DNA from: Meloidogyne chitwoodi
Taxonomy: Eukaryota > Nematoda > Chromadorea > Rhabditida > Meloidogynidae
DNA: 64,000 bases
NCBI GenBank assembly: GCA_015183035.1
Contig: JACZZP010000013.1
Coordinates: 496,001 to 560,000 of the forward strand
Direction: 5' to 3'
The notes below the pieces were generated by a model. It was not told where the DNA came from. It searched no databases and worked only from the letters and a program-made list of their open reading frames with translations. A program made the translations under genes and the position numbers. Below, piece by piece: positions 12,512-13,398 of the stretch; position 1 is the stretch's first letter; the number at the start of each line of letters is the position of its first letter.

Positions 12512-13398
12512 ATGCAGATTTTTGTTAAAACTCTTACTGGGAAGACTATTACGCTTGAGGTTGAGGCTTCTGATACAATCGAGAATGTTAAGGCTAAGAT
12601 TCAAGACAAGGAGGGGATTCCACCTGATCAGCAACGCTTAGTTTGTTTAATTTGTTTATTTCTTAGGTCCTTTTCTTTTTCCTCAAATTCCTGGTGTCTT
12701 TGAAATTATGACGATTTTCTTACTAGAAACTCGTCATAAAATGTTTTAATTCTAAAAATTGACTTAACTTATAAACGTTTAATTTTTTTTTTGTTTACTC
12801 CCATCTGTATTATATACTTTTTATTTTTAGATTTTTGCTGGTAAACAGTTGGAAGATGGACGTACTTTAGCGGATTATAACATTCAAAAGGAGTCTACTC
12901 TTCATTTGGTTCTTCGTCTTCGCGGTGGTATTATCGAGCCTTCTCTTCATAAATATACTGCATACAAAGAGGATAAAAAAACTGAAGATTTACCTGTTGA
13001 ACGTATTCGCATTATTCTTACTTCACAAAATGTTAAAGCTCTTGAAAAAGGTTTCTTAAAAATTTTTTAGAATATTAAAATTTAACACAGTTTGCGAGAA
13101 ACTCATCCATGGTGCGCGTGAAGAACATTTGTCGGTGAAGGGGCCCATTCGTATGCCAACCAAAATTCTACGCATTACTACTCGTAAAACACCGTGTGGG
13201 GAAGGATCGAAGACATGGGACCACTTTCAGGTTTTTTTTTAAATTAAACCTCAATTAATTTTCCAATTTTTCCAGATGCGTATACACAAGCGAATTATAA
13301 ACCTGCAGAGTCCAAGCGATGTGCTGAAGAAAATTACTGGAATTCCAATCGAGCCGGGAGTTGATGTTGAGGTTACTATTGCTGATTCGAATGCTTGA
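12512..13398 (+). CDS. Ubiquitin-40S ribosomal protein S20 (uS10) fusion
   Basis: Four exons (12512-12640, 12831-13050, 13091-13230, 13276-13398) join in frame to 203 residues. Residues 1-76 are complete ubiquitin, ending LRLRGG. Residues 77-84 are IIEPSLHK, the first eight residues of the L40 extension. From there the protein is ribosomal protein S20: [106 protein letters not shown]. Cleavage after Gly76 would free ubiquitin and an S20 with an L40-derived N-terminal tag. The first intron, after codon 43, matches that of the ubiquitin-L40 gene in position and sequence. Known animal ribosomal partners of ubiquitin are L40 and S27a. I know of no established S20 fusion. Splice joints are all in frame with GT/AG ends. 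Confidence 0.93.

Follow-up and report, generated by a model that had tools for sequence, protein, structure and literature searches.

A ubiquitin–uS10 (S20) fusion gene, probably a functioning precursor gene, in the nematode Meloidogyne chitwoodi

In Meloidogyne chitwoodi, ribosomal protein S20 (uS10) is encoded in frame behind a complete ubiquitin and, judging by the sequence, is most likely synthesised in the form of a ubiquitin precursor. A probability of about 85% is given to a functioning ubiquitin–uS10 precursor gene, a scenario that takes in the transcription, splicing, cleavage, and origin that we infer below from an observed gene structure, reading frame, and selection. That S20 is made as a ubiquitin precursor had been proposed in an initial annotation of this DNA, and the proposal is well supported by the sequence: no other S20 has been found, Met1 of ubiquitin is the only AUG from which the whole of S20 can be read, and S20 is strongly constrained.

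The ubiquitin–S20 gene and its junction

The window is the whole 64,000-nt stretch of DNA that was analysed. The fusion gene occupies positions 12512–13398 of its plus strand, with the following features:

12453–12477, plus strand: TTTATTTTTCAG and the start of the 5′ UTR, a putative splice-leader acceptor that would be used in trans-splicing; an exact inverted copy of these 25 nt lies at 12056–12080, before the ubiquitin-L40 gene
12512–12640, plus strand: exon 1, ubiquitin residues 1–43 (spliced translation, GT–AG); its DNA equals exon 1 of ubiquitin-L40 in 129 of 129 nt
12831–13050, plus strand: exon 2, ubiquitin residues 44–76, IIEPSLHK, and the first part of S20 in a single unbroken frame (open frame and spliced translation)
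12930–12953, plus strand: junction IIEPSLHK, the first eight residues of L40, with Lys at the position of the S20 initiator Met (translation, L40 comparison, and alignment)
13091–13230, plus strand: exon 3, S20 (spliced translation)
13276–13398, plus strand: exon 4, end of S20 and stop TGA (spliced translation)

The introns are 190, 40, and 45 nt long, and all three have GT...AG ends. On spliced translation, the four exons join in frame into 612 nt of coding sequence, that is, 203 residues and a stop, which agrees with the exon structure and the in-frame ubiquitin ending in LRLRGG given by the initial annotation. Residues 1–76 are ubiquitin with the C-terminal LRLRGG, residues 77–84 are IIEPSLHK, and residues 85–203 are S20 (uS10) from its residue 2 to its end; hence the “complete S20” claimed earlier stands except for the initiator Met, which is missing. 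The N-terminal ubiquitin is complete, and a ribosomal protein follows in frame after Gly76, as in a ubiquitin precursor. A Pfam search finds the S10/S20 domain (PF00338) in the fusion; the eL40 tail (PF01020) is absent from it, the matches to that family in the window lying only on the minus-strand neighbour. With S20 of M. enterolobii and M. hapla, the S20 part shares 92% identity in an alignment of nine sequences (92–93% when the homologue search is included), and a chance match to S20 can be set aside because exon 3 by itself matches M. enterolobii S20 with an E value of 4e-27 in a protein search of the assembly.

No splicing is needed to join the two proteins, since a single open frame (12831–13070) holds the final 33 residues of ubiquitin, the octapeptide, and the start of S20. 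In the alignment, which comprises seven database S20 proteins and the two S20 copies of this locus, the Lys of SLHK falls in the column where four of the seven database proteins (P0123, P0124, P0127, and P0145) have their initiator Met. Ala occupies this column in two others (P0128 and P0137), whose Met is followed by a gap; in the M. hapla model P0122, the residue is Glu, preceded by a five-residue extension. In both S20 copies of the locus, the initiator Met of S20 is replaced by Lys. The fusion contains Met at residues 1, 138, and 164 only, so Met1 of ubiquitin is the sole AUG that gives the whole of S20, and S20 from this locus would be made behind ubiquitin unless it begins in an unseen 5′ exon or at a non-AUG start.

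The ubiquitin-L40 neighbour and the second S20 copy

The fusion gene stands head-to-head with an intact ubiquitin-L40 gene, the likely donor of its ubiquitin part:

11239–12020, minus strand: ubiquitin-L40 gene, exons 12020–11892, 11702–11542, and 11335–11239 (by reading); PF01020

The start codons of the two genes are separated by 491 bases. Their ubiquitin halves, intron included, form the inverted repeat I1/I2 (94% and 96%, arms of 239 and 242 nt). Within intron 1, 158 of the 175 positions compared agree (90.3%), and the encoded ubiquitin is the same protein in the two genes, with a dS of 0.074 for the ubiquitin part. The similarity starts at the TTTATTTTTCAG element upstream of both start codons, which, from its sequence, is a plausible splice-leader acceptor. 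Moreover, IIEPSLHK reproduces exactly the first eight residues of the L40 encoded on the opposite strand, which bears out the eight L40-type residues reported earlier after ubiquitin. The octapeptide and the identity of the inverted repeat together indicate that the ubiquitin part either came from the L40 neighbour or has been kept alike to it. In the preferred scenario, an inverted copy of the 5′ half of the ubiquitin-L40 gene (5′ UTR, exon 1, intron 1, and exon 2 as far as SLHK) would have joined an S20 gene at the position of its start codon.

Downstream of the fusion gene, a second S20 copy lies in tandem at 13648–14204:

13648–13857, plus strand: equivalent of exon 2, with a ubiquitin remnant bearing a frame-shifting 10-nt gap, IIKSSLHK, and the start of S20; no exon 1 and no in-frame ATG
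13898–14037, plus strand: equivalent of exon 3, same protein as exon 3 (copy comparison)
14082–14204, plus strand: equivalent of exon 4, same protein as exon 4, stop TAA (copy comparison)

This copy retains remains of intron 1 (78.3% identical to copy 1 in the compared part), and the ubiquitin/S20-type junction is present twice, in two diverged copies. In its S20 frame, a TGA directly precedes the readable part, in which Met first occurs at residue 88, within S20. Since it also lacks exon 1, copy 2 alone cannot start the whole of S20 at an AUG.

Both S20 copies are under strong purifying selection. Over 119 codons, they show 38.5 synonymous and 4.5 non-synonymous differences (path-averaged), and three residues differ; dS is 0.76 and dN/dS is 0.022. 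Exons 3 and 4 together hold 25 synonymous and 0 non-synonymous differences, and if an unconstrained copy 2 had taken 12 of these 25 changes, the protein would have stayed unaltered with a chance of about 2e-8 (a rough binomial estimate). Taken together, the low dN/dS and this small chance mean that both copies coded for S20 through most of their divergence. The junction octapeptide differs between the copies in two residues, with zero synonymous changes. Intron 3 (13231–13275 against 14038–14081) is identical in all 44 shared bases, with one gap, next to exons that differ at many synonymous sites, and intron 2 is 52.5% identical. The difference between the two introns points to patchy gene conversion, and intron 3 is, from this comparison, likely a conversion tract. 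S20 may have been duplicated long ago, conversion with L40 may have maintained the likeness of the ubiquitin halves, and copy 2 may have lost its ubiquitin frame later; the junction may predate the S20 duplication or may have been carried between the copies by conversion.

The broken ubiquitin of copy 2 bears on a different reading, in which S20 is synthesised without ubiquitin: either an unrecognised short first exon or a trans-spliced leader would be joined to exon 2 past the ubiquitin code (or to copy 2), leaving ubiquitin as a relic or an alternative isoform. Copy 2 combines constrained S20 exons with a broken ubiquitin, so another S20 start may exist or may have existed recently, and the MVSSTE that precedes AYAYKDD in the M. 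hapla model may reflect a separate S20 start exon in the genus. The copy 1 gene itself speaks against this: between Met1 of ubiquitin and residue 138 of the fusion there is no in-frame ATG, the few AG dinucleotides of exon 2 near the junction have no pyrimidine tract (by eye), and its ubiquitin is intact, with the same protein as in the L40 gene. Unfused synthesis is considered unlikely on this evidence. The long constraint on S20 in copy 2 despite its broken ubiquitin counts against the precursor scenario, which does not fully explain it.

S20 and ubiquitin–ribosomal protein genes elsewhere

The initial annotation had called for a genome-wide search for a stand-alone S20 gene. The assembly (47,477,280 bases in 30 contigs) was searched as a whole, and no cytosolic S20 besides the two tandem copies was found by Pfam, protein, or DNA searches. 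The PF00338 profile gave ten matches, four of which lie at the locus, four on contig C4, and two on contig C30. The C4 matches were rejected as spare S20 genes because they read by eye as mitoribosomal S10, and the two on C30 because they read by eye as an mL48-like protein. All six matches to the M. enterolobii S20 protein at E values up to 10 lie at the locus (contig C5), with none elsewhere, and among the 15 matches to the locus DNA, the S20 part is matched at the locus only. The same Pfam method recovers the controls S11, S27a, and S30, as well as L40 within the window. As a side observation, the mitoribosomal S10-like sequence on C4 occurs in four places that make up two similar pairs, one of them inverted; ARAGORN (bacterial setting) called none of the four loci of tRNA-like stretches in the C4 introns.

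An S20 gene may have been lost from the assembly, and the fusion could then be a misjoin or an unexpressed duplicate, with a normal S20 in unassembled sequence. An inverted repeat, such as the one at this locus, is a typical spot for assembly trouble. Against a misjoin, the junction lies within one open exon and is found twice in diverged copies, and the 4–6% difference between the arms of the repeat shows that they do not stem from a single folded-back read. The assembly yields other ribosomal proteins, and the strong purifying selection on S20 also argues against an idle duplicate, so we hold an artefact of this kind to be very unlikely.

The initial annotation described S20 as a third ribosomal protein tied to ubiquitin. 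The tie of S20 to ubiquitin stands, but the set in this genome is L40, S20, and S30 with canonical or near-canonical ubiquitin, and S27a with a degenerate domain. S30 (C29:1265773–1266309) is preceded not by a FUBI-like domain but by a near-canonical ubiquitin that differs at one residue (Ala28 to Ser), the joint being read by eye. The sole S27a above the family cut-off (C29:44357–45110) comes after a degenerate ubiquitin-like domain, whose two exon pieces show 67% and 62% identity. Likewise, S27a stands behind a degenerate ubiquitin-like domain in C. elegans ubl-1. Thus, the 40S proteins that follow a canonical or near-canonical ubiquitin here are S20 and S30, not S27a. Two further ubiquitin-like loci were seen. 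At C12:1436800–1438800, an L40-like stretch comes after a highly divergent ubiquitin (45% and 35% for its two pieces), and at C23:1942000–1944500, a ubiquitin whose first exon part (residues 1–12) is unmatched runs in frame into a second stretch with weak likeness to ubiquitin.

Among the protein records listed from other species, the fusion was not seen, so they lend no phylogenetic support to its long retention, a point against the precursor scenario. With the whole fusion as a query, the best 120 of 7944 matches are ubiquitin repeat proteins. With the S20 part, the Pfam annotation names a ubiquitin domain in none of the best 120 of 1869 matches, which include two Meloidogyne records (P0122 and P0123). 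When proteins of at least about 177 residues were searched, PF00240 was found in none of the 120 matches listed of 135. Neither of the Meloidogyne S20 records P0122 and P0123 nor the odd record P0342 carries ubiquitin; P0123 and P0342 begin with MAYAYKDD, and P0122 of M. hapla has MVSSTE before AYAYKDD. Gene models may be cut short, so a record lacking ubiquitin is no proof of an unfused gene. The length-filtered set includes other long S20 records; one of them, P0121 from Aphelenchoides bicaudatus, has 227 residues and consists of two tandem S20 units.

Processing, known fusions, and the uS10 tail

According to the preferred scenario, the gene would give a single mRNA and from it a 203-residue precursor, which ubiquitin proteases would cut after Gly76, where the next eight residues are those of L40. 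Cleavage is predicted because the C-terminal end of ubiquitin and the octapeptide behind it are the same as in ubiquitin-L40, and because such precursors are normally undetectable, being cut fast, as stated in the main text of PMC8122580. The products would be one ubiquitin and an S20 with an L40-derived N-terminal extension. If the whole S20 supply comes from this locus, part of the ubiquitin output would be tied 1:1 to the output of S20.

Among the closest known systems is ubiquitin-L40 (UBA52, yeast Ubi1 and Ubi2), which shares with the fusion the same ubiquitin, the 5′ gene half, the eight residues after the cut, and the single N-terminal ubiquitin, whereas the tail of the fusion is uS10, which belongs to the small subunit and has no relation to eL40. 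Ubiquitin-S27a (eS31; UBA80, yeast Ubi3) likewise places ubiquitin ahead of a 40S protein, but a different one. According to passages of PMC8122580, the partners of ubiquitin are nearly always eL40 and eS31 and in a few cases eS8, eS19, uL1, eL41, eS30, and P1, and those of PMC6332867 describe fusions to S27a, L40, P1, and P2 in Bigelowiella natans. As far as these passages go, such rare natural fusions (P1, P2, eS8, eS19, uL1, eL41, and eS30) resemble the present one as occasional captures of a further ribosomal protein and differ in the partner, which here is uS10.

The initial annotation knew of no S20 fusion, and no natural one has turned up since, either in the main texts of the open-licence papers searched or among the 120 listed of 135 length-filtered proteins. 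The main text of PMC8122580 mentions uS10 three times, each time as a ubiquitylation target and never as a fusion partner, and the words S20 and uS10 are absent from the main text of PMC6332867. Passages of PMC4099483 list S20 and a ubiquitin fusion-degradation protein as separate items; those of PMC9613687, PMC10721647, and PMC7661504 concern uS10/RPS20 ubiquitylated after translation, with no gene fusion. The parts consulted of PMC12930898, PMC6721733, and PMC11354881 match in their reference lists only, with no S20 or uS10. In the main texts of the open-licence literature, no natural ubiquitin–uS10 fusion was found, and the engineered yeast construct Ub(G76V)-uS10(8-121) stands alone (PMC12583759). 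As described there in part, this construct also has ubiquitin on the N-terminal side of uS10 and is functional, but it is man-made, uncleavable, and without the target lysines, whereas the present fusion is natural, with Gly76 intact and K6 and K9 kept. The precursor principle is old, with a few other rare partners known, and the uS10 partner, found nowhere else in these searches, seems here to be fused obligatorily.

The ubiquitin joint adjoins K6 and K9 of uS10, the collision-ubiquitylation lysines, which are invariant in all nine aligned sequences, both S20 copies included. When ribosomes collide, uS10 is ubiquitylated at its N-terminal lysines, and no-go decay is impaired in C. elegans rps-20(K6R+K9R), according to passages of PMC9870110. 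Several ribosome entries list uS10 only from query residue 15, e.g., 6qzp_SU (103 residues), which fits a flexible tail. The extra residues would lie on this tail and should not hinder assembly; given the chain starts in these entries and the yeast fusion, a longer S20 tail is likely harmless. Uncleaved Ub-eS31 and Ub-eL40 are harmful (passages of PMC8122580), and yeast with the uncleavable Ub(G76V)-uS10(8-121) has no growth defect (passages of PMC12583759). This tolerance in yeast weakens the earlier suggestion that small-subunit assembly needs deubiquitylation.

The same yeast construct can be taken to favour a reading in which the fusion is translated and a lasting share stays uncut, giving ribosomes whose uS10 permanently bears one ubiquitin by the collision-ubiquitylation site. 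Passages of PMC12583759 report that the uncleavable protein works and supports ribosome quality control, and K6 and K9, whose change impairs no-go decay in C. elegans (PMC9870110, in part), are kept here. The unchanged Gly76 and following L40 residues, together with the fast cleavage noted above for such precursors, weigh against a lasting uncut share, which is held to be very unlikely. The biosynthetic ubiquitin beside the signalling site of uS10 is most likely removed at once.

The main text of PMC8122580 regards the evolutionary reason for ubiquitin gene fusions as a “mystery” and says that the choice of eL40 and eS31 is not fully explained. An animal with a seemingly obligate ubiquitin–uS10 would be a natural experiment on whether ubiquitin can be carried by further abundant ribosomal proteins, and on whether losing canonical ubiquitin on S27a favours new 40S partners. 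Because uS10 receives ubiquitin on its N-terminal lysines when ribosomes collide, the fusion also tests how a cell separates biosynthetic from signalling ubiquitin on this protein. A family search of the assembly for ZNF598 gave no match, which says nothing about its presence. On a speculative and distinctly unlikely view, the lineage has rewired its ubiquitin–ribosome link, with S27a behind a degenerate domain and with S20 (obligatorily) and S30 behind a canonical or near-canonical ubiquitin, and slow or partial cutting of the S20 precursor would leave some 40S subunits pre-ubiquitylated on uS10 and primed for quality control. Ubiquitin would then be pre-placed where ZNF598/Hel2 marks collided ribosomes.
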